Source: Gammaproteobacteria bacterium bin55 (lineage in GTDB: Bacteria > Pseudomonadota > Gammaproteobacteria > Pseudomonadales > Azotimanducaceae). Taken from it: 43,168 nt of DNA. The notes under the pieces are model-generated. The model had not been told where the DNA came from, did no database searches, and saw only the letters and a program-made list of their open reading frames with translations. Made by a program: the position numbers and the translations under genes. The DNA lies in NCBI GenBank assembly GCA_002238665.1, contig MPMU01000012.1, forward strand, positions 1-43,168. The letters are read 5' to 3'. Numbering within the stretch: the stretch's first letter is position 1; each line of letters starts with the position of its first letter. Shown here one piece after another: positions 4,132-43,168 of this stretch.

Positions 4132-5352
4132 TCAACCAGTTGCTACGTCATCGCTCTGGTTATTCAGTCTTGTTACGATACCTTGCTCAAGTAGCTGACT
4201 GAGTTCAGATTCACTGTAGCCTAATTCATACACAATTTCTTCGGTGTGTTCCCCCAGATGCGGTGCGCCATAGCGAATTTCTGTCGGCGCACCCTCAAAC
4301 ATTGCTGCATTTCTGGCCTGTCTGAGCGTGCCTGCATGACGGTGTTCAGTCTTTACGACGATCTCGCTCGCCTGCACCTGTGGATGATGAATCATCTCAT
4401 GTCGACGCAGTACCGGTGCACAAGGTACGCCCTTTTCTTCCAAGATGTCTAACCACTCAGTGGCAGATTTCGTTAGGAGAGCCTCTTGCATCAAATTGAG
4501 CCGTTCATCCGCGAATCTATCCCTTCCAGCCGGATTCTTAAATCGCTCATCTTCCAGCAAGTCGGTGCGCTCTACTGCCTCGCAGAAGTGCTGCCATTGA
4601 TCGTTGGTCATGACGGAAACACTGATATAGTCCGTCTTTGTCTCGTAAATCAAATCAATAAATGTTGCTGCGGCCGCAACATCGACTTCCTTACCTACAA
4701 ATGTTTGACTACCCATATCACTTGACCAGAGGAATGCGACGACAGCATCTAACATCGAAAGCTTCACATGCTCACCTTTGCCAGTACGCTCTCGAGCAAA
4801 TAGTGCGGCGGAAATCGCTTGTGCTGAAGTTACACCCGTCAGTTTATCGGGCAAGATAGTTCGTATCAGGCGAGGTCGACTAGAGTCTGAACCTGCTTGA
4901 ATCGAAGCCAGGCCGGAGATTGCTTGAATAATCGGATCGTATACGGGTTTATGCGACCAAGGACCTTTTTCTCCCCAACCACTCATAGATACGTAAATCA
5001 GTCGTTCATTAATCTGCCGTAGGGCAGGCTCGTCAATCCCTAATCGTGCCATGACACCCGGACGAAAGTTCTGCACGAATACATCCGCTGTGCGAACGAG
5101 GTCGAGTAGAAGCTGATGACCTGCTGGCTGTTTCACATCAATGGCAATGGACCTCTTATTGCGGTTGTTATTGACGAAAGCCGCCGAAAAGTGTCTTTGA
5201 CTATATCCGGCACGCCGGGCGTGATCACTGGCAACCGGTGCCTCAACCTTGATCACCTCTGCGCCTTGATCAGCAAGAATCATCGTGGAGTATGGTCCCG
5301 CGATCATTGTCGTGAAATCAACTATTCGTATGCCGTCGAGTGGTCCTGCCAT
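4132..5352 (-). CDS. Family III CoA transferase (CaiB/BaiF type)
   Basis: A 406-residue protein of the formyl-CoA transferase/CaiB family. It begins GPLDGIRIVDFTTMIAGPYSTMILADQGAEVIKVE, the family's N-terminal signature. NNNRNKRSIAID (61-72), FVQNFRPG (92-99) and D139 in VYDP, the expected position of the acyl-anhydride-forming aspartate, are all present. Members move CoA between carboxylic acids, for example in carnitine, oxalate or bile-acid metabolism. No acyl-CoA dehydrogenase or hydratase is adjacent, so the substrate is open. The divergent DegT-like gene starts about 140 bases away. Confidence 0.9.
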   Translation of the reverse strand: MAGPLDGIRIVDFTTMIAGPYSTMILADQGAEVIKVEAPVASDHARRAGYSQRHFSAAFVNNNRNKRSIAIDVKQPAGHQLLLDLVRTADVFVQNFRPGVMARLGIDEPALRQINERLIYVSMSGWGEKGPWSHKPVYDPIIQAISGLASIQAGSDSSRPRLIRTILPDKLTGVTSAQAISAALFARERTGKGEHVKLSMLDAVVAFLWSSDMGSQTFVGKEVDVAAAATFIDLIYETKTDYISVSVMTNDQWQHFCEAVERTDLLEDERFKNPAGRDRFADERLNLMQEALLTKSATEWLDILEEKGVPCAPVLRRHEMIHHPQVQASEIVVKTEHRHAGTLRQARNAAMFEGAPTEIRYGAPHLGEHTEEIVYELGYSESELSQLLEQGIVTRLNNQSDDVATG

Positions 5353-6810: not shown

Positions 6811-8031
6811 ATGGGAAACCAAAAACACTTTGCTGAGACCGTACACAAGGTTGAAATTCCTACGAAGCACTATTCTCTGCTAGTTGCAGAAAATGGGAGT
6901 TTGCTTAACTGCGACACAGAAGCCAAGCTAGGCCTTACTGATCAGGGCAACGATAGCATTCTCTGGAACCAACTCGGGACGACTGAACTTCAGCACCTTG
7001 AGACGGGTGTTACGGTCAGTTTGAATTCGGCTCAAAACGGTTCTGATCGGCTGATACTTAATGCCGCTACTCAAACCTGGTCCGATGACGAAGAAATCGC
7101 GACCTCACAGAGTTTTACGGTAGAACATGGGCCGGCAGACAAACCATCGAATTATCTAGATCATCTTCGAACGCACGGCTGGGTATGCCTGACGAGCATA
7201 CTGTCAGATCAAATCGTCGAAGAACTGGAACGCACTGCTTGTACCGACCGCTACGAGCACCAGTCCTACGACATGAGCAAACCTGCGATCTGCCAGAATC
7301 CTGCAGTTGCGATCACAGCAGCCGAACCCATATCTCTTTGGATCATTCGCCAGTATATGCAGATTCCAGACATCAAGCTGGGGCACGTACCCGCGTTCGC
7401 AGTACTGAAAACCGATGATGGAAAACGCAACGTGCAAGGCTGGCACTCTGATTTCCCATACCACTGGGGTACCGGTGTGAGAGGCCAGGTTCCTACTCCT
7501 TCTGGTCAGACTGTGCTCGGAGTTCAGCGTAATGTCTGTGTCTCAGACTTCTCAAAAATTCGAGGTGCTACCGCCTTTAAATTAGGTTCGCACGCACTCG
7601 ACTCTGGTCCTCCAGACGAATGGGGCACCGCGCAAATTCACGGTCAGCCAGGTTATCGCGAGAAGAACGGATTGCCATATGGTGGACCGGAATCAGACAT
7701 AGTAGAAGCACCGGGAGGCAGCATCATACTTTATGACTCACGGACCTGGCACAGGGCAGGAGTCAACCGAACTGAACATCCTCGCGCGGCTATGCTTCAA
7801 GCCATGATTCCAACGTATATCTTGGCGAAAAACGATACTAGCCAGACATACAAGCAATTCCTGAAGTCCGATGTCTATTCAAAACTCCCGGATCGAGTGC
7901 AGACTGAAATTGAAAATCTAATGGTTCAGCAATTTATCGGTCCAGGTGGACGCTATGCGATCACGCCAGACGAAGAGTTATCAGAACGATTGCGACAGAG
8001 ACAAAAAGCCGTAATGAGCACTGGCTACTGA
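6811..8031 (+). CDS. Phytanoyl-CoA dioxygenase (PhyH) family protein with extra N-terminal domain
   Basis: A 406-residue Fe(II)/2-oxoglutarate oxygenase. The metal ligands are visible as GWHSDFPYHWG (H212, D214) and H314 in SRTWHRAG, with R320 nearby as the likely 2-oxoglutarate arginine. The PhyH domain starts near residue 114 (YLDHLRTHGWVCLTSIL). The first ~105 residues are an additional beta-rich segment with LLVAENGSLLNCD and LQHLETGVTVSLN, possibly a small sugar- or ligand-binding module. The family hydroxylates small molecules or acyl groups; the substrate here is unknown. It starts a plus-strand run, with the sulfurtransferase gene 18 bases downstream. Confidence 0.85.
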   Translation: MGNQKHFAETVHKVEIPTKHYSLLVAENGSLLNCDTEAKLGLTDQGNDSILWNQLGTTELQHLETGVTVSLNSAQNGSDRLILNAATQTWSDDEEIATSQSFTVEHGPADKPSNYLDHLRTHGWVCLTSILSDQIVEELERTACTDRYEHQSYDMSKPAICQNPAVAITAAEPISLWIIRQYMQIPDIKLGHVPAFAVLKTDDGKRNVQGWHSDFPYHWGTGVRGQVPTPSGQTVLGVQRNVCVSDFSKIRGATAFKLGSHALDSGPPDEWGTAQIHGQPGYREKNGLPYGGPESDIVEAPGGSIILYDSRTWHRAGVNRTEHPRAAMLQAMIPTYILAKNDTSQTYKQFLKSDVYSKLPDRVQTEIENLMVQQFIGPGGRYAITPDEELSERLRQRQKAVMSTGY

Positions 8032-8941: not shown

Positions 8942-9907
8942 ATGGCAGAAATTACGTTTAGAACGGTAGAAACCAATGGCATAAACATGCACTTCGCTGA
9001 GGCCGGATCAGGCCCTTTAGTGATCATGTGTCACGGATTTCCTGAGTCCTGGTATTCATGGCGACACCAACTACGGTTTCTGTCCGATCATGGATTTCAT
9101 GCGGTAGCGCCCGATCAACGCGGCTACGGCAAAACTGATGCGCCGGAAGACATCGGAGATTACAACATCTATCAATTGGTAGGCGATATTGTCGGATTGG
9201 TACATGCACTTGAAGAAGAATCCGCGGTAATTGTTGGCCATGACTGGGGTTCACCTGTCGCTTGGAACTCGGCGATGATGAGACCTGACCTGTTTCGGGC
9301 GGTTGCTTCATGTTCAGTACCGACCAGCCCACGAGGCTCGCAAGCACCTTTGCAGGCAATCAAGAACCTATTTGGAGATAACTTTTTCTACCAACTTTAT
9401 TTTCAGACTCCAGGTGTCGCTGAGCATGAACTACAGAACAACCCTGCATTAACCATGCGAAAAATGCTCTTTGGCGCGTCTGGTGCGGTTAATCGAGGCA
9501 ATTTCCTCCAACCAGCTAATCCCGCTCACAAGTCTGCATTTATGTTAGAACGCATGCCAGACCCCGGCGACGACTTACCAGCTTGGTTAACCAAAGAAGA
9601 CTTGGAGTTCTTTACCAACGAATTTGCTCGAACTGGCTTCAGAGGTGGACTGAATTGGTATCGCAACATTGACCGGAATTGGGAAATGACTGGAGCTTTC
9701 CAAGGCAAGAAAATCAACCAACCGGCGCTTTTCATAACCGGCGACAGAGATGTCGTGCCTTATAACGAACAGGCGGGTAACGCCATGCGATTCCAGGTTC
9801 CAAACTTGACGAAGACAGTGGTACTTCCAGGCATTGGACACTGGACCCAGCAGGAAGCTCCAGACGATGTGAACCGAGAATTACTCGAGTTTCTACAGTC
9901 GATTTAG
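8942..9907 (+). CDS. Alpha/beta hydrolase, epoxide-hydrolase-like
   Basis: A 321-residue alpha/beta-hydrolase. The oxyanion motif HGFPESW (31-37) and PDQRGYGKTDAP (57-68) are typical of epoxide hydrolases and haloalkane dehalogenases. The nucleophile elbow is GHDWGS with D101, so an alkyl-enzyme ester mechanism is expected, not a serine esterase. The acid is probably D270 in GDRD and the base H300 in GIGHWTQQE. AAGGA about ten bases before the ATG supports the start. Its last 15 bases overlap the convergent symporter gene. Tyr residues in the cap (for example LNWYRN) fit epoxide opening. Confidence 0.88.
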   Translation: MAEITFRTVETNGINMHFAEAGSGPLVIMCHGFPESWYSWRHQLRFLSDHGFHAVAPDQRGYGKTDAPEDIGDYNIYQLVGDIVGLVHALEEESAVIVGHDWGSPVAWNSAMMRPDLFRAVASCSVPTSPRGSQAPLQAIKNLFGDNFFYQLYFQTPGVAEHELQNNPALTMRKMLFGASGAVNRGNFLQPANPAHKSAFMLERMPDPGDDLPAWLTKEDLEFFTNEFARTGFRGGLNWYRNIDRNWEMTGAFQGKKINQPALFITGDRDVVPYNEQAGNAMRFQVPNLTKTVVLPGIGHWTQQEAPDDVNRELLEFLQSI

Positions 9908-11362
9908 TTCGCTTTTGTTGAAAAAAGTCGTCACGGACTGAATTTCAACCGCAGGTTGTCGCCACGCTGACACCACGTAAACGATCGTGGAGAGAATAAG
10001 CGCAGGCACCACTTCGTGAAGTGTTGCGTTGTATCCGAGTCCTCGCCAAAGAGTGAGGACTAGCAATCCAGTACAGAAAGTCGCCATTACCGCAAACATC
10101 GATCCTTTTCGCCAGTGCAATCCGAGTAGGATGGGCGGTCCAAAACAGGCCGCGTAGAGACTTCCGGATAATGTGGTGATTTCCACAATCCCACCAAAAG
10201 GTCTCAGTGCAAACATTGCGGCGATTATTGCAGACAAAATAATGGCTAATCGAGTCAATAGCACCGACTGCTTCTCTGACAGTGGTTTCAAAAGACCTAT
10301 CACGTCTCGTGTCAATGTTGAACCAGACACAAGTAGCACACTATCCATGGAGGACATGGCTGCAGAAAGAATGGCAACCAACAGAAAATCCGCCACTAGA
10401 ATGGGAAAAATGTCAACGTTTTGAACCAACGTCGGGACAATCATGTCCGTGTCTTCAATATTTGGAATTAGATGATGCGCATAGATTCCAATAGGGAATA
10501 GCGAAAACTGGATGAGCAATAAACCAATGACTGCCCAGAAAATCCCTATCCGAATTCCCCTGTCGTCCTTCAGTCCGTAAAACCTGGAAATCTGACGCGG
10601 GTCAATCAGCAACTTCATAGCTCCCGCAAATGCGATCCCGAACAGGACAGCAAAGGGGATTCCGCCACTCCATTCGAACATCCACTCCTTATCGGGTAGA
10701 TTCTTGAGTTCGAAAATGCTTCCAATGCCACCACTGGCTTTGGTGATAAAGAAGAACAGCAATAGAGAACCTACGATCATGAGTCCTCCTTGCCATACAT
10801 CCGTCCTCACCACTGATACAAACCCACCCAAGGATGTATAGAACAGCACGACGACAAACATAATGCCAATAGAGGTCGAGTACGGTAGTCCCAAGAAAAT
10901 CTGGAAGAGATGTGCGGAGCCTTTGAATATCGCAATTAGATAGAAAATACTCGACACGAAAATAATCAGTCCTGCCGCCACACGAGGAATATTTGAACCG
11001 AATCGAAACGCGAAGTATTCCGGAATGGTTACTGCGTTGGTTTGTGCGGTGAACCGCCTCAATCCAGGTGCTACCAGCTTCCAAGAAAGAAACGCAAATA
11101 ACACCAGCATGGCTGCCATCAGCAACCAAGGTAGACCGTACTCATATCCTTTCCCGGAGAGTCCGAGATAGCTGTTACTGCTCGCGAAGGTTGCAACGAA
11201 CGAGATACCGATCACTACGCCGCTCATATTTCTGCTTCCTGTAAGGAATGCAGACATGTCGCTCTTTCGCCGGAAACCGATTTTCGCGTGGACGATCAAA
11301 AGCACGGTATAGAGTGCCAACAATGCCGCGGCGAACCAATGAATCGTGAGAAATTCTGTCAT
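9893..11362 (-). CDS. Sodium:solute symporter (SSS family)
   Basis: A 489-residue inner-membrane protein with about 13 hydrophobic helices. SSS-family features include SDMSAFLTGSRNMSGVVIGISFVATFASSNSYLG near 34-67, AITVAI-type helix 3 residues (TNAVTIPEYFAFRFG) and DPRQISRFYGLKDDRG in the central loop. The family couples sodium entry to uptake of proline, pantothenate, acetate or sugars; the substrate is not identifiable here. The gene overlaps the end of the epoxide hydrolase gene tail-to-tail by 15 bases. Confidence 0.9.
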   Translation of the reverse strand: MTEFLTIHWFAAALLALYTVLLIVHAKIGFRRKSDMSAFLTGSRNMSGVVIGISFVATFASSNSYLGLSGKGYEYGLPWLLMAAMLVLFAFLSWKLVAPGLRRFTAQTNAVTIPEYFAFRFGSNIPRVAAGLIIFVSSIFYLIAIFKGSAHLFQIFLGLPYSTSIGIMFVVVLFYTSLGGFVSVVRTDVWQGGLMIVGSLLLFFFITKASGGIGSIFELKNLPDKEWMFEWSGGIPFAVLFGIAFAGAMKLLIDPRQISRFYGLKDDRGIRIGIFWAVIGLLLIQFSLFPIGIYAHHLIPNIEDTDMIVPTLVQNVDIFPILVADFLLVAILSAAMSSMDSVLLVSGSTLTRDVIGLLKPLSEKQSVLLTRLAIILSAIIAAMFALRPFGGIVEITTLSGSLYAACFGPPILLGLHWRKGSMFAVMATFCTGLLVLTLWRGLGYNATLHEVVPALILSTIVYVVSAWRQPAVEIQSVTTFFNKSELNRL

Positions 11363-11657: not shown

Positions 11658-11912
11658 CTAGTCGGCCAGGAACCTATGAGGATCGCTCAAGGTATTTTTC
11701 GATGCTGCGGCATCAACCATTTTGTCGTATTTTGGATCTAGCCGATCGAGCTTTGAGCGTTTAGAGAGCTGAACTGAACTCTTGGAGATGATTGATCGGG
11801 TATTCTGAGACTTGCAGTGCTCGCATGTAATCGACCGCGGTTTCTCTGTGATTGATGCTACTACGCTCGAAATGTTTGCACATTCATTACAACGATACTC
11901 ATAAATTGGCAC
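11658..11912 (-). CDS. FmdB-type zinc-ribbon protein
   Basis: Best started at the GTG at 11912, which gives the classic FmdB opening MPIYEYRC. Two CxxC knuckles follow: CNEC (near 8-11) and CEHC (near 30-33), with a basic, Ser-rich tail. FmdB-like zinc ribbons are often called regulatory proteins but have no settled function. The start overlaps the stop of the upstream gene by 14 bases, making it the fifth member of the diiron gene cluster. It could be an accessory or assembly factor for that system. Confidence 0.75.
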   Translation of the reverse strand: MPIYEYRCNECANISSVVASITEKPRSITCEHCKSQNTRSIISKSSVQLSKRSKLDRLDPKYDKMVDAAASKNTLSDPHRFLAD

Positions 11913-12303
11913 GACGGGCGTTCCATTGCGCACCTGCGTCTACAAACGCCTGAATAGACCGTTGATAGCGTTCAAAAAGTCTCCGCTTAAGCGGATTCGA
12001 TGCGGAGATTATGCTCTTGTCTACGTCTACGCTCTGTAACGAGTGAGTCGTACGTATTGCTCGCTGTTTCATGTAGCTATTCCAGTTCCTGGTTGACATT
12101 TCAACCATGACTTCGGCTTCTGAAAACGGCAAATCAGGGTCAAGCGACTTGATGTCACCTACCTCAAATCCATGAAAGTGCACCAAATTGCAGTGTTTAC
12201 CCGACTTGAAAGCGAGGCGTATATCCACACTACCAAGTTTTCTAAATTCAGAGGAGCTGTTGACTTCCTCTTTCGCGGGTTCCATCCAATCAAATACTGC
12301 CAT
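11899..12303 (-). CDS. SCP2-like small protein, second of two paralogues
   Basis: A 134-residue soluble protein. It resembles its upstream neighbour (148 residues) over most of its length. Shared features are a strand ending in HFHGFEVGD / TFEGQECTS, an acidic strand SEAEVMVEMSTRNWNSYM / ADADFYMSMDAVDWQEML, and a C-terminal helix RYQRSIQAFVDAG / RFNQTLQFFFDAS. The strand-then-W motif and closing helix fit the SCP2 sterol-carrier fold, which binds hydrophobic ligands. That assignment is inferred. Its start codon overlaps the upstream stop (TAATG), so the two are probably made in matched amounts. Confidence 0.65.
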   Translation of the reverse strand: MAVFDWMEPAKEEVNSSSEFRKLGSVDIRLAFKSGKHCNLVHFHGFEVGDIKSLDPDLPFSEAEVMVEMSTRNWNSYMKQRAIRTTHSLQSVDVDKSIISASNPLKRRLFERYQRSIQAFVDAGAQWNARRANL

Positions 12304-12749
12304 TAGCCAAATCTCGTGTCAATTCTGCTTGATGCGTCAAAGAAAAACTGAAGTGTCTGATTGAATCGAAAAAACATATCCTCTCGAAATTGATCACCAT
12401 GAACCGAGGTGGCAAGCCCGTCGAACCGATTTAGGTCCAAGGTATTAAGCGTGTAATCGCCGACAGCATGACCATGTTTGGAAATGTTTGCCAACATCTC
12501 CTGCCAATCTACCGCATCCATGGACATATAGAAGTCAGCATCTGCCAACGCTAATTCACCGCTCTGCTCTACTGAGGTGCATTCCTGCCCTTCAAAAGTC
12601 AAGACAAACACATCGTCACCTACTTTTACGCCAGCAACACAGTTACAATGCCCTGCACCGCGTCGGTGAAATTCCTCGTCGGTGTTGAATTCCTTTCGTA
12701 CTGCGTTGAACCACTCTACGGAAGGAAACGAAAGTTTCGCTCGACTCAA
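12303..12749 (-). CDS. SCP2-like small protein, first of two paralogues
   Basis: A 148-residue soluble protein starting with PSVEWFNAVRKEFNTDEEF, an SCP2-like N-terminal helix. The strands VGDDVFVLTFEGQECTS and ADADFYMSMDAVDWQEML follow, then a C-terminal helix with RFNQTLQFFFDAS. Start ATG overlaps the stop of the degenerate diiron paralogue by four bases. Sterol-carrier-like proteins form a hydrophobic pocket for acyl chains or sterols, which would suit delivery or shielding of a lipid substrate for the neighbouring oxygenase. Fold and role are inferred; paralogy with the next gene is seen directly. Confidence 0.65.
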   Translation of the reverse strand: MSRAKLSFPSVEWFNAVRKEFNTDEEFHRRGAGHCNCVAGVKVGDDVFVLTFEGQECTSVEQSGELALADADFYMSMDAVDWQEMLANISKHGHAVGDYTLNTLDLNRFDGLATSVHGDQFREDMFFRFNQTLQFFFDASSRIDTRFG

Positions 12750-13924
12750 CGTTTTCTCTTATCAGCCTGAAATATAGTTGGCATCTGTTCCAACTTGCGA
12801 TCTAGCTTGAGCCATGCACACAGTTCGAGATATTCCTTCACGTAGGTATCAAGCATTTCGTAGAAGGTATCTAGTCCGTCTTTGTTAACGCCATTGATTC
12901 CGGCACCGAAAATAATCGAGAGCGCTTCCTTTAAAACCGGATCACGAAGATCCCTTACCAGAAACGCATCGCCAATAGTAATCGAGATCCCAACGCTGGC
13001 GCGTTTCTCTGGATCCGCATTCATGGCATAGTGGAGATGATCAATGCCGTAACTGAGTATCCGTGCCAGATCCTGGCCCACATACTGATAGAGCTTGATT
13101 TCTGCTTCGTTGTATGCAAAGCGTTCAAGATATCGACAGATAGTTAATGCGAACAGCAGGCGGTTGAATACCCAAGTAGCAACGGTCTCAGTCCAACCGC
13201 CGGTACTCTCCAGAAGTACACGATTTACTTGGCATGTACTTTCCAGACCTAATCCACCACCATTAGATAAGGCTCGCTTACGAAAAGCCTCGTACCGACG
13301 TGCACCATCAAAGCTAGCTGTGGCGAGGTATTGTTTCACTTCGTGATAGCCATAGGCCATCTTGTGTTGCCAGTTCGTGATAACCTCGATGTCGGTATTC
13401 GCATATTGCATCAATTCGGTACAGACTTGACAGATTGCATGTTCAATGTCGTCTGGCAGTGGCGCGAGTTGATCCCAAGGAATGTCGGTAGCAGGGATCC
13501 ATCTCCTTTGGATGGCCTCTTCATAGAGTGTAGCAGCAGAGTTGGCCCATAAATCGGCCTTATCTTGAACACTTATGGCAAGTGGCAGACGTGCGCCAGA
13601 GGCGATTGCACCCCGTGGGTTCCGACCTCGGTCAGACCATGTGGTAGGTATTTCGCCATAGACACCTACATTAAGACTGCCAAGTGTTAAACCTTTCTCA
13701 CCAGGTAGGACTTTAACGCCCCATTCCCGAGTGATACCCATCCAATTTAGACGGGGTTCGGGGATCTCAATTTCTTCTTTCTTTGCTTCGAAGTTCTTAA
13801 GTTGCTTGACGTGTGTGCTGGTGGACTCTTCTGTCTTCTTCTTTACTTTCTTTGCCAATTTACGCTGCAGCCTGTTCCATAATCTCGGTGAGTCGAGAAC
13901 GACCATTTTCGAACCGTTCACCAA
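12746..13924 (-). CDS. Ferritin-like paralogue that has lost its diiron site
   Basis: A 392-residue homologue of the gene just upstream. Homology starts near residue 53 (EPRLNWMGITREWGVKVLPGEKGLTLG), runs through LYEEAIQRRW, PLPDD.E, FRKRALSNGGG and a GQD.AR block, and covers the ferritin-like bundle. Aligned to the upstream protein, five of six iron ligands are replaced: E130 by Q172, E164 by G207, H167 by R210, E244 by L286 and H247 by I289. Only E246 (their E214) remains. It is therefore probably a structural or regulatory partner, like the non-metal subunits of bacterial multicomponent monooxygenases. The start is uncertain: ATG 13924 or 13906 overlaps the upstream gene, while TTG 13858 falls just after its stop. 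Confidence 0.85.
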   Translation of the reverse strand: MVNGSKMVVLDSPRLWNRLQRKLAKKVKKKTEESTSTHVKQLKNFEAKKEEIEIPEPRLNWMGITREWGVKVLPGEKGLTLGSLNVGVYGEIPTTWSDRGRNPRGAIASGARLPLAISVQDKADLWANSAATLYEEAIQRRWIPATDIPWDQLAPLPDDIEHAICQVCTELMQYANTDIEVITNWQHKMAYGYHEVKQYLATASFDGARRYEAFRKRALSNGGGLGLESTCQVNRVLLESTGGWTETVATWVFNRLLFALTICRYLERFAYNEAEIKLYQYVGQDLARILSYGIDHLHYAMNADPEKRASVGISITIGDAFLVRDLRDPVLKEALSIIFGAGINGVNKDGLDTFYEMLDTYVKEYLELCAWLKLDRKLEQMPTIFQADKRKR

Positions 13925-14930
13925 ACCCTGCAGAAATTACTCGCTTCTTATACTCCATCAGCTGACGTCTTCGAATAGCAACCAACTTTCGCCACCCCTC
14001 ATCGAATTTCTTGATGCCGCCACCTAACAGGATTGCAAGAGATTCCGATGTCTGATTCAAAGTCCCGGCTGGATTCGCCGCAGACGTGAGCAGACCACCT
14101 TCCGCTTCATCCAGGTACGAGTGAATCTCATCTCTTCTTTCAGGCGCATGCTCAGACATATAGCGCATGTGCATGACTCCGAACGCAACGTGACGAGCTT
14201 CGTCCTGTGCACACAATCGGTAAATAGTCTTCTCAGCATCGTTATAGGCCATCAATTCGCCCATGCGGAAGATAGTCAGGACCGCACCTTCGCCAGAAAT
14301 ATGTAACCGCGACGACATCTCGGTAAAGTCTCTAGACAGATCAATGCCACCTACAAATCCGGCGGTTGATCCCGTCGACCGCATTAGACCACCACCGTTC
14401 GCCAGTGCACGCTTTCGAAATACGTCCATATGTCTGGATTCGTCGTTTACCTGAGCTAGGAGCACCTGTCGGGCTTCAAAAAAGTCAGGGGAAGTCTTAG
14501 CAACCCACCGGCTAGGTACATCGCCAGCTACAAATTCAACCTCTGTAAGAAACGTTGCCATTTGGCACTGGGCTTGCTCTACATCATCAGGAAGTGGTTC
14601 GATAGTTTCCCAAGGTACGTCCGTCGCCGAACTCCATTGCCGCTGAAGCGCTTCCTCATATAGAAAAGACGCATTGTCCATCCAGATTTCGCTCTTCTCA
14701 CGAACCGTATAGTTCCCTAGTCGCATACTATCAGGACGAGGTGCACTACCACGAGGGCGACCACTTAAGTTTCTTGAATAATCCGGAATCTCACCGTAAT
14801 CGCCAATCTGAATATCGGCGAGCGTAAGACCATTACGTCCCGGCTCAGCATTTGTATCCCAAGACCCTGTTTTATCCATCCATTCAAGGTCCATGTCAAC
14901 GTTTTGGTTCTGTGGAGCAACTTCAGCCAT
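13860..14930 (-). CDS. Ferritin-like diiron protein, putative oxygenase catalytic subunit
   Basis: A 356-residue helical-bundle protein with AAGGTG five bases before its ATG. The ligands fit an R2/monooxygenase diiron site: E130 (TEVEF; E132 is possible), E164xxH167 (NDESRHMD), E214 (SGEGAV) and E244xxH247 (QDEARHVAFG). The spacings of about 34, 50 and 30 residues are of the right order for such four-helix sites, and the EARHVAFG helix is characteristic. Family members activate O2 to hydroxylate, desaturate or form radicals. No reductase or ferredoxin gene is adjacent, so electrons must come from elsewhere. It heads a five-gene operon with a ligand-less paralogue, two SCP2-like proteins and a zinc ribbon. 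The substrate is unknown. Confidence 0.85.
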   Translation of the reverse strand: MAEVAPQNQNVDMDLEWMDKTGSWDTNAEPGRNGLTLADIQIGDYGEIPDYSRNLSGRPRGSAPRPDSMRLGNYTVREKSEIWMDNASFLYEEALQRQWSSATDVPWETIEPLPDDVEQAQCQMATFLTEVEFVAGDVPSRWVAKTSPDFFEARQVLLAQVNDESRHMDVFRKRALANGGGLMRSTGSTAGFVGGIDLSRDFTEMSSRLHISGEGAVLTIFRMGELMAYNDAEKTIYRLCAQDEARHVAFGVMHMRYMSEHAPERRDEIHSYLDEAEGGLLTSAANPAGTLNQTSESLAILLGGGIKKFDEGWRKLVAIRRRQLMEYKKRVISAGFGERFENGRSRLTEIMEQAAA

Positions 14931-15014: not shown

Positions 15015-15440
15015 ATGACAGAAAACTTCAGCGTACATCCAAAACTTTCTGAAGATTGCACATTCCTTGCAGAATGGGGGTTGTGCCAAGTACTGCTTAT
15101 GAACGACTCTCGTTTTCCTTGGCTGATTCTTGTGCCACAAAGAAGCGACTTGAGAGACCTGCACGAAATCGACAATGAGGATAGACTTCAGCTATTTCAA
15201 GAAATCGAAATCTGTTCTAGAGCTCTTCAAAAAATCGAGAATATCTCAAAAATCAATGTCGCCGCACTTGGCAATCAAGTCCCACAGCTACATGTCCACG
15301 TAATTGGGAGATCACAACAGGATGAAGCTTGGCCAGGACCGGTCTGGGGAGTCGGTGAAGTGAAGCAATATAGTGAGGACGAACTCGCTAGACGAATCGA
15401 TTTTCTGATTGGATGCTTTGCAACCATGAATCGAACCTGA
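15015..15440 (+). CDS. HIT-family (histidine triad) protein
   Basis: A 141-residue protein with the HIT signature QLHVHVIGR (91-99), where H93 and H95 are two of the triad and the third His position is Ile, as in a bacterial subgroup. RFPWLILVPQR (33-43) and DEAWPGPVWG (103-112) also match that subgroup. HIT proteins are nucleotide hydrolases or transferases acting on AMP-linked substrates, but members of this subgroup are mostly uncharacterised. It is divergent from the diiron operon and shares its short control region. Confidence 0.85.
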   Translation: MTENFSVHPKLSEDCTFLAEWGLCQVLLMNDSRFPWLILVPQRSDLRDLHEIDNEDRLQLFQEIEICSRALQKIENISKINVAALGNQVPQLHVHVIGRSQQDEAWPGPVWGVGEVKQYSEDELARRIDFLIGCFATMNRT

Positions 15441-30666: not shown

Positions 30667-31596
30667 CTAGTCGAATTGAGTTCTAGGCTGAGAGCTAAAC
30701 TTACTCCAGTCCGGTCCACTTGCATCCCAGCCGTACGATTGCTGTTGATTGAGTAGAGTGAGCATTTGCGGATTGTTCGCATGCCGTCGGAGGAATTCTT
30801 CGGGTACATGCTCTCCGAATTTTTCTTGGGTCACTATGTATTGCCGACAGAAATAGTTTGCCAAGTTGATTCGAATACCTGGCTGGTTACGACGAAACGA
30901 TCCATGCCATGTATTACCGTGCCAAACCACGCAATCACCAGGGTCCAAATCAATCGATACCGCTTGAGGGTTCAGATTCTTCGCACCTAACCCCATTTCG
31001 TCCTCGCGGGGTGAACGGCATAGCCGGTGGCTTCCAGGAACCATCGCCAGTGCACCTCGTTCCTTACTATACTCAGTGAGTGCGTAGTTCACATTAGCGA
31101 CTTGCGAGATCATGCTGAACGGCGATGGAATGCCGTTGCCATTGTCTGAGTGTAAAGCGAGAGGTCGGCCACCTTGAGCCTTGAAATGACAGGTCATACT
31201 ACTCAAAACCGCCCGCCGACCGAGTAGGTAATGGATGAGGGCAAGTGGTCTAGATGACTGCACAATCTCCTCAAAGACCGAATCCGCAAAAAGCAAGTAG
31301 TGAGCCAATGACATCCCTTCCCAGTGACTACCAGATTCGTTCTCTATGTCCACAGCATTCCCGGTCTTTTCCTCCATGACGCGAGCGATCGCGTCCTTAG
31401 CTCGGTTCACTTGGTCCTCGTTTAAAACGCCTCGAAGCCTTGTATAGCCGATTACGTCCAATTCCATGAGATTGTCTGTTAAGTTCAATTCCGTAATATC
31501 CTGCATAGTCCTGTCGAATGCAGGGTTGTTCGTTCTCGGTAGCTCAATGGCGTTAGGTGCGCGTTGCATTGCTTTCTCAGAAAAATGTTGACTCAA
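30667..31596 (-). CDS. Phytanoyl-CoA dioxygenase (PhyH) family protein
   Basis: A 309-residue Fe(II)/2-oxoglutarate oxygenase of typical PhyH length. Ligands are H149 and D151 (LALHSDNGN) and H231 (NTWHGSF), with R242 as the probable 2-oxoglutarate contact (GIRIN). GALAMVPGSHRLCRSP precedes the last strand, as in the family. It likely hydroxylates a small metabolite; the substrate is unknown. It is one of three 2-oxoglutarate oxygenases in the window. Confidence 0.88.
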   Translation of the reverse strand: MSQHFSEKAMQRAPNAIELPRTNNPAFDRTMQDITELNLTDNLMELDVIGYTRLRGVLNEDQVNRAKDAIARVMEEKTGNAVDIENESGSHWEGMSLAHYLLFADSVFEEIVQSSRPLALIHYLLGRRAVLSSMTCHFKAQGGRPLALHSDNGNGIPSPFSMISQVANVNYALTEYSKERGALAMVPGSHRLCRSPREDEMGLGAKNLNPQAVSIDLDPGDCVVWHGNTWHGSFRRNQPGIRINLANYFCRQYIVTQEKFGEHVPEEFLRRHANNPQMLTLLNQQQSYGWDASGPDWSKFSSQPRTQFD

Positions 31597-42461: not shown

Positions 42462-43168
42462 ATGGCTGAAGTACAAGATCTGAACCTCGAAGAAGTACCC
42501 CTTTACCAACAACGGTCCCAAAGGGCTAAAGCAGATAAACCGCCTTCTCGTTCGTCGGGGCTAGGTGCGGTTGCACTCGCCCGACATCCTGAAGTAGAGA
42601 GTAGGCAAGAATTAGCGAACAAGATTCGCTCTCAAGATGACGTGTTGGAAACTGGGCACTTCGGTACGGTAAGGTATCTGCCCGTCACCGTTAACGGTCT
42701 TGAACTCAAACTTGAACCTCTCCAGCCAAGTATTGGCACGGTGGTGCACGGTATAGACCTCGCCACGGATATACATGATCCTGAAGTGGTTGATTTCCTG
42801 CGCAATTTATGGCTCGAACGTCGAGTGATCATGTTCCGCAACCAAAACCACCTTACACGACACCAACTAGCCGATTATGCCAAGAAGTTTGGCGAACTAG
42901 GTGCACAGTTTGGCGAACGCGAACACATGCCAAATTCACCGCAGGATATCAATCTTCAGCTTAAGGACGAGACTTTACCTGAGCTATTGATCCTGCCTTC
43001 TGACGAGGCAGTACCGAACGCCGCGTCCGGCTGGCATGCTGATGCTACGTGGCAACCCAAACCACCTATGGGCTCTGTTCTCATGTGTCGCGAGGCACCT
43101 CCAGTTGGTGGTGATACCTGCTTCTGTGACTGCTACGCCATGTGGGAAGGACTTCCCCTTAAAACCAA
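42462..43168 (+). CDS. TauD/TfdA-family dioxygenase, 3' end cut by window
   Basis: An open frame of 235 codons runs from ATG 42462 to the window end. An unusual N-terminal extension of ~85 residues (charged, RQELANKIRSQDD) precedes the TauD fold, which starts with LEPLQPSIGTVVHGIDLATDI (85-105). RRVIMFRNQNHLTRHQLADYAKKFGEL follows, then H192 and D194 (GWHADATWQ) as iron ligands and EAPPVGGDTCF. The distal His and Arg lie beyond the window. The family hydroxylates sulfonates, carnitine precursors or phenoxyacids; the substrate is unknown. Confidence 0.85.
   Translation, partial: MAEVQDLNLEEVPLYQQRSQRAKADKPPSRSSGLGAVALARHPEVESRQELANKIRSQDDVLETGHFGTVRYLPVTVNGLELKLEPLQPSIGTVVHGIDLATDIHDPEVVDFLRNLWLERRVIMFRNQNHLTRHQLADYAKKFGELGAQFGEREHMPNSPQDINLQLKDETLPELLILPSDEAVPNAASGWHADATWQPKPPMGSVLMCREAPPVGGDTCFCDCYAMWEGLPLKT

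Follow-up and report, generated by a model that had tools for sequence, protein, structure and literature searches.

A five-gene cluster in a stretch of 43,168 nucleotides from Gammaproteobacteria bacterium bin55 (assembly GCA_002238665.1, contig MPMU01000012.1; the whole stretch is called the window below) very likely encodes an as yet unstudied O2-using metal enzyme, made up of a working subunit, a metal-free sister subunit and small helper proteins. All five open reading frames (ORFs), A to E, were confirmed at positions 11658-14930 on the minus strand. Gene A (13860..14930) codes for an R2-like ferritin-fold protein with a full dimetal ligand set, the predicted catalytic subunit, and gene B (12746..13924 as listed) for a paralogue of A that lacks the metal ligands and is predicted to be a structural or regulatory partner. 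Gene C (12303..12749) specifies a small protein with no Pfam match, whose predicted fold is nearest, if weakly, to SCP2/UbiJ; gene D (11899..12303) encodes its paralogue, and gene E (11658..11933 as listed) an FmdB-type zinc ribbon with four Cys and a conserved LDPxY tail. That A, B, C and E form a functional unit is much more certain than the substrate, for which our best reading, to which we give about an even chance, is that A to E constitute a heteromeric dimetal oxygenase of acids activated by coenzyme A (CoA). The initial annotation of this DNA had proposed a new heteromeric diiron oxygenase with a lipid or sterol-like substrate; the observation on which it was built is confirmed, and its interpretation is partly supported.

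The genes touch or overlap, as had been described: 4 bases are common to B and C, and 1 base to C and D. The 65-base overlap of A and B in the ORF list is probably a mechanical start call, since comparison with homologues suggests that B begins at the TTG at 13858, one base past the stop of A. The same comparison makes the GTG at 11912 the likely start of E, which would reduce its overlap with D to 14 bases.

A metal-binding protein and its metal-free paralogue

The six metal ligands of A (E132, E164, H167, E214, E244 and H247) are invariant in all 80 A rows, and in B of the window the corresponding residues are A, G, R, L, L and I. All four carboxylates are gone in 69 of 69 B rows, position 244 is Lys or His in 47 of them, and each of the two ligand histidines is retained in slightly more than half. 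These rows derive from 77 B ORFs, seven of which were omitted for length; among the 70 used, L104:7881-9044 carries the full ligand set and was counted as a second A. More distant A-B pairs likewise have the full set in A, with other ligand losses in B. The pairing of a metal-binding protein with a metal-free paralogue is thus conserved. In the window the two proteins are 35% identical, and profile comparison shows A and B to be kin (hhalign E 1.6e-72).

The AlphaFold model of A (pLDDT 88.3, pTM 0.86) matches ribonucleotide reductase R2, the alpha subunit of methane monooxygenase hydroxylase (MMOH), VlmB and R2lox in Foldseek at E values of about 1e-4 (2e-4 for MMOH alpha), which points to an R2/R2lox/MMOH-like fold. 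By sequence the protein stands further apart. A Pfam scan of 69 A members gave nothing better than E 1e-4 (DUF455, 8 members); none matched a hydroxylase family at E 0.01, and the R2 family PF00268, to which A is not assigned, was matched at that threshold by one member of the 69 (E 0.0015). A ferritin-like fold, together with a zinc-ribbon partner and the absence of a linked reductase, would also suit an iron or redox sensor or a stress complex that is no oxygenase at all. We consider this very improbable, given that the closest folds are those of R2, MMOH and R2lox, that the dimetal site has six ligands, and that the genes are linked to transport and CoA genes.

The nearest curated sequence model for A is that of R2lox, which all 69 members match weakly (best E 2e-9), and R2lox is among the Foldseek matches with a TMt of 0.58-0.60. 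One could thus suppose that A works as a dimetal oxidase of the R2lox kind, with free fatty acids or other lipids as its substrates, that B is a chaperone or regulator, that C and D deliver the lipid, and that the CoA genes nearby belong to general acid catabolism; SCP2 proteins, which C and D faintly resemble, do bind lipids. We regard this as unlikely. To our knowledge R2lox has no conserved metal-free partner, such as B would be here, and the CoA-transferase linkage described below speaks against it. The A protein of the window scores 27.2 bits against the NCBIfam R2lox model, far under the cut-off of 194. The Val-Tyr cross-link pair of R2lox, with Val at E69+3 and Tyr at E167-5 (PMC6060897), is replaced in A by Ala135, which is invariant, and Leu209, which is nearly so. 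The His-Glu and Glu-Glu spacings of R2lox, from the residue numbers of that paper, are 62 and 35, as against 47 and 30 in A. Score and cross-link residues alike thus place A outside R2lox.

A different protein emerges as the best sequence match of the A profile in the PDB, namely a VlmB homologue (6d9f/8wvr, E 0.0012), the match being local and about 60 residues long. With VlmB also present among the Foldseek matches and one A member matching Pfam AurF (E 8e-4), the set might be taken to make or modify a natural product by VlmB- or AurF-type chemistry, that is by N-oxygenation, azoxy formation or aldehyde deformylation. This we find improbable: no biosynthetic genes were recognised in the flanks, which were read mostly by eye and not by profile, and the cassette is common to many genomes. 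We also know of no conserved metal-free partner for VlmB, nor of any such five-gene set around it.

Recurrence and inheritance of the gene set

The initial annotation had staked its reading on the five genes occurring together elsewhere, and they do. We scanned named genomes and took the best 79 of 177 relatives (A identity 53-83%), comprising 56 gammaproteobacterial and 23 Chloroflexota loci; the host records, metagenome-assembled genomes (MAGs) of uncultured bacteria, are labelled Gammaproteobacteria, Pseudomonadales, Proteobacteria or Chloroflexota (Dehalococcoidia, Chloroflexi and one SAR202). Two of the loci (L075, L083), each on its own contig, come from a MAG whose record names Klebsiella pneumoniae as the organism, a label that is very probably wrong. 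A and B stand side by side in 75 of the 79 loci (with 1.8 kb in between in L090), and the order A-B-C-C-E, where C denotes either C or D, is found in 50. Nine loci, all from Chloroflexota, have the order A-B-E-C with a single C-type gene, and a further 16 are partial, 10 of these being ended by the contig end. As the order recurs across two phyla, the arrangement is not due to chance.

The set recurs but is not indivisible. Besides the A-B-E-C lineage, there are eight distant A-B pairs (L154-L161) beside which neither C nor E was found. A lacks an adjacent B in 4 of the 79 loci, so that the pairing is not universal. In G970 (A without adjacent B in L152 and L153, and C-B without adjacent A on another contig, L162) and G984 (L151 and L163, likewise), the separated genes occur together in one genome, which we count in favour of our reading. 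It is a point against it that a complete A-B pair is present as well in both (L157 and L156, respectively), whose A may equally serve the lone C-B. The lone C-B sets (L162:8893-11000 and L163:8526-10376) have B proteins with unusual residues at the ligand positions, A-D-A-D-K-H.

The cluster is patchily distributed. Among 58 genomes of relatives, 23 match A at E 1e-3, including 17 with a close A (the source genome counted) and one, G032, with a divergent pair. In a draw from the order, 5 of 293 genomes match at 1e-20, all from the same family and one of them the source genome; a draw from the phylum gave 2 of 398 at 1e-15, again with the source genome as one, and a draw from Chloroflexota 11 of 301 at 1e-20, centre genome included. 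Ten of the 18 genomes of the source genus carry A and B, seven carry neither, and G010 holds an apparent remnant (L020), in which the B-like ORF is shortened, a D-like ORF is present and neither A nor C was seen; ORFs resembling a transposase by eye lie nearby. A plasmid search returned one match (27%, Xenorhabdus). No description of the cluster was found in the open-access literature, as judged by titles and abstract openings.

In a maximum-likelihood tree of 85 rows, built by a quick method with SH-aLRT support and without bootstrap, 37 of 39 B proteins fall in one clade (99) and 40 of 46 A proteins in another (97), with subclades of A and B that mirror each other. We therefore conclude that A and B mostly stem from one duplication and have since been inherited as pairs, as far as such a tree can tell. 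Outside the two clades, on long and unsure branches, are the L164 pair, the L168 pair and four solo genes. Solitary full-ligand proteins (L165, L166, L167 and L112) form a separate clade, and in the Chloroflexota loci L165-L167 an acyl-CoA dehydrogenase-like gene adjoins, with profile support from L165 only. Comparing the distance matrices for A, B, C and E with one another gives r 0.80-0.89 across 32 non-redundant loci, taken from the 62 that hold all four, and r 0.74-0.79 across the 22 gammaproteobacterial ones among them (permutation p 0.001). Such correlations are a sign of co-inheritance, not of contact, and they also mirror shared ancestry. In the A half and the B half of the tree alike, gammaproteobacterial rows are interspersed with those from Chloroflexota, a pattern suggestive of transfer of the cassette between the phyla; A identity between the two reaches 70%.

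Small proteins, neighbouring genes and the substrate

The initial annotation had described C and D as two SCP2-like paralogues. Their paralogy stands (hhalign E 6.8e-45), and the likeness to SCP2 is weak. The AlphaFold model of C (pLDDT 93.8, pTM 0.89) has UbiJ-SCP2 and an archaeal SCP2 protein as its best Foldseek matches (E 0.01-0.06, TM 0.4-0.6), no match falls below E 0.001, and MreB-type proteins rank next with lower probability. The C/D profile has five weak matches in the PDB, the best being the SCP2 protein 2cx7 (E 0.14), and none of 90 C/D members matches the Pfam SCP2 models at E 0.01. The predicted fold of C is thus weakly SCP2-like, and the weakness of the resemblance is a point against our best reading. 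E is on firmer ground: it exceeds the cut-offs of PF09723 and TIGR02605 (41.1 against 34.4 and 45.4 against 31.3 bits), and is an FmdB-type zinc ribbon by these models, as had been noted. Each of the four Cys is present in 61 or 62 of 62 family members, and D66 and Y69 of the tail in all 62. Matches of B or C/D to Pfam RLIG1, Maf and coronavirus 6B/7B were weak and treated as chance (one B member was scanned).

Beyond the cluster, a sodium:solute symporter gene (9893..11362, minus strand) follows 295 bp past E on the same strand, and a class III (CaiB/BaiF) CoA-transferase gene (4132..5352, minus strand) lies further downstream, past the symporter gene and several genes on the other strand. 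Downstream sequence of 5 kb or more is available for 38 gammaproteobacterial loci. Of these, 21 have a same-strand symporter gene in that direction, 21 likewise have a class III CoA-transferase gene, and 18 have both. Of the 21 symporter genes, 17 are no more than 0.62 kb away from E, and those of L034, L062, L063 and L082 lie within -3 to +4 bases of it. In Chloroflexota, a CoA-transferase gene falls within the visible stretch in 11 of 42 loci. In L100, L101 and L106-L108 it is a long gene on the same strand that starts 75-530 bp downstream, and in L109 it is cut by the contig end and lies 103 bp downstream, again on the same strand; a two-domain CoA-transferase is shown by Pfam in L106 and was assigned by length and similarity in the others. 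In L106-L108 a flavoprotein gene comes next after it (TcuA-like by NCBIfam in L106), and in L097 and L098 the CoA-transferase gene is on the opposite strand with an enoyl-CoA hydratase gene adjoining (by Pfam in L097, by similarity in L098). Within the source family, G032 has a CoA-transferase gene adjoining its divergent C'-B'-A' set, and in L164 thiolase-like and ChsH2-like genes come after C'.

The neighbourhood, with its symporter and class III CoA-transferase genes and the enoyl-CoA hydratase, thiolase-like and acyl-CoA dehydrogenase genes of some relatives, offers a hint that the substrate is carried on CoA. The substrate would most likely be a carboxylic acid in the form of its CoA thioester; gammaproteobacterial hosts could import the acid through the adjoining symporter and activate it with the class III CoA-transferase encoded nearby. 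Against this must be set that 17 of the 38 gammaproteobacterial loci have no downstream CoA-transferase gene, and that synteny within a single family is not independent evidence. No such gene is seen in the visible stretch of 31 of the 42 Chloroflexota loci, among them all seven with the order A-B-C-C-E, three of which have less than 1.4 kb downstream. These genes are also abundant: the eight genomes counted have between 14 and at least 93 matches each, the two highest counts being lower bounds, so that one lying close to the cluster may do so by chance. This applies most of all to Chloroflexota, whose 46 to at least 93 copies per genome weaken the linkage as proof. Nothing beyond the weak SCP2-like fold speaks for the sterol or lipid substrate proposed initially, and we do not retain it as a specific claim; the neighbourhood points instead to a CoA-activated acid.

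An alpha/beta hydrolase gene (8942..9907) with a GHDWG motif, which is typical of epoxide hydrolases, lies on the plus strand, and its membership in the cluster is doubtful. Close relatives of it are found near 7 of the 38 loci, with a weak same-strand eighth in L074, and the protein is far under the cut-offs of its nearest NCBIfam models, those of haloalkane dehalogenase. Epoxidase chemistry may apply but was not deduced from this opposite-strand neighbour, given how few loci have it. A HIT-family protein is encoded at 15015-15440, divergent from A, and many gammaproteobacterial loci have a relative of it on the opposite strand upstream. Three look-alikes of PhyH/TauD-type oxygenases were recognised by eye in this one 43 kb window (6811-8031, 30667-31596 and 42462-43166).

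Electron supply and comparison with known systems

As initially noted, there is no reductase gene in the cluster. A search for the FNR-type NAD-binding domain PF00175, which did not extend to GR-type ferredoxin reductases, moreover gave no match in the source genome (G000, whose assembly is 88% complete) and none in 8 of the 10 other genomes with the cluster that were searched. The nine genomes are G000, G005, G006, G009, G014, G017, G023, G690 and G691, the completeness of the last two being unstated. They include all seven further gammaproteobacterial genomes tested, six of which are 95-100% complete; PF00175 was present in two of the three Chloroflexota genomes, and in 10 of 14 control genomes. 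Absence of an FNR-type domain is unusual among aerobic bacteria. It argues against a PaaE- or MmoC-type reductase as the donor in most of the hosts tested. All 11 cluster-bearing genomes contain Fer2 ferredoxin domains.

In the enzyme that we envisage, a carboxylate-bridged dimetal (diiron or Mn/Fe) oxygenase built from A to E, A would hold the metal pair, activate O2 and hydroxylate or epoxidise the CoA-activated acid. B, an old duplicate of A that lost its metal site, would be the structural half of an A-B heterodimer, much as PaaC is for PaaA. The small proteins C and D may bind A-B or carry the substrate, and E, with its family-specific tail, may aid assembly or dock a partner. Electrons would be supplied by a donor that is not encoded in the cluster, the simplest candidate being a free [2Fe-2S] ferredoxin, rather than by a reductase of the PaaE or MmoC type.

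Known heteromeric diiron oxygenases, such as those for methane, toluene and phenylacetyl-CoA, attack hard substrates. If the proposal is correct, it would add a new oxygenase to groups that include SAR202, one for which neither sequence kinship to PaaABCD nor, in the case of A, C and D, any Pfam family was detected; it would be a further case of a dead paralogue turned fixed partner, and it would make testable how such an enzyme obtains electrons without the usual reductase. The SAR202 group has been proposed to oxidise recalcitrant ocean carbon (PMC5395668, a paper in which a word search found neither 'diiron' nor 'ferritin').

The closest parallel in organisation is PaaABC(D)E of E. coli K-12 (L169), which also combines a diiron subunit and its metal-free paralogue, the counterpart of B, with small proteins. 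The six ligands of PaaA (E42, E72, H75, D126, E155 and H158; PMC4498308) are spaced similarly to those of A, and a CoA substrate, which gene context makes a possibility here, would be another likeness. However, no sequence kinship is detectable between A/B and PaaA/PaaC or between C/D and PaaB (hhalign probability 1-2% for A against the single E. coli PaaA sequence), and membership in the PaaABCDE system thus has no sequence support against E. coli PaaA-D. B is akin to A and not detectably to PaaC, the two pairs differ in internal identity (35% for A-B against 17% for PaaA-PaaC, PMC4498308), and no PaaE-like gene is linked.

A second parallel is provided by the soluble methane monooxygenase hydroxylase and other bacterial multicomponent monooxygenases, which consist of metal-bearing and metal-free paralogous subunits plus small proteins. 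Here the likeness of A is one of fold only, and no effector gene was recognised in the cluster. The arrangement can thus be described as analogous to PaaABC or MMOH, without detectable homology to E. coli PaaA-D. One could go further and speculate, in a view that we put somewhat short of an even chance, that the cluster represents a separate invention of a diiron oxygenase with one working and one dead subunit, which arose by duplication within its own family, acquired SCP2-like carriers and a zinc ribbon, dispenses with an FNR-type reductase, and serves the oxidation of CoA-activated acids in Dehalococcoidia and Pseudomonadales as a cassette passed between phyla.

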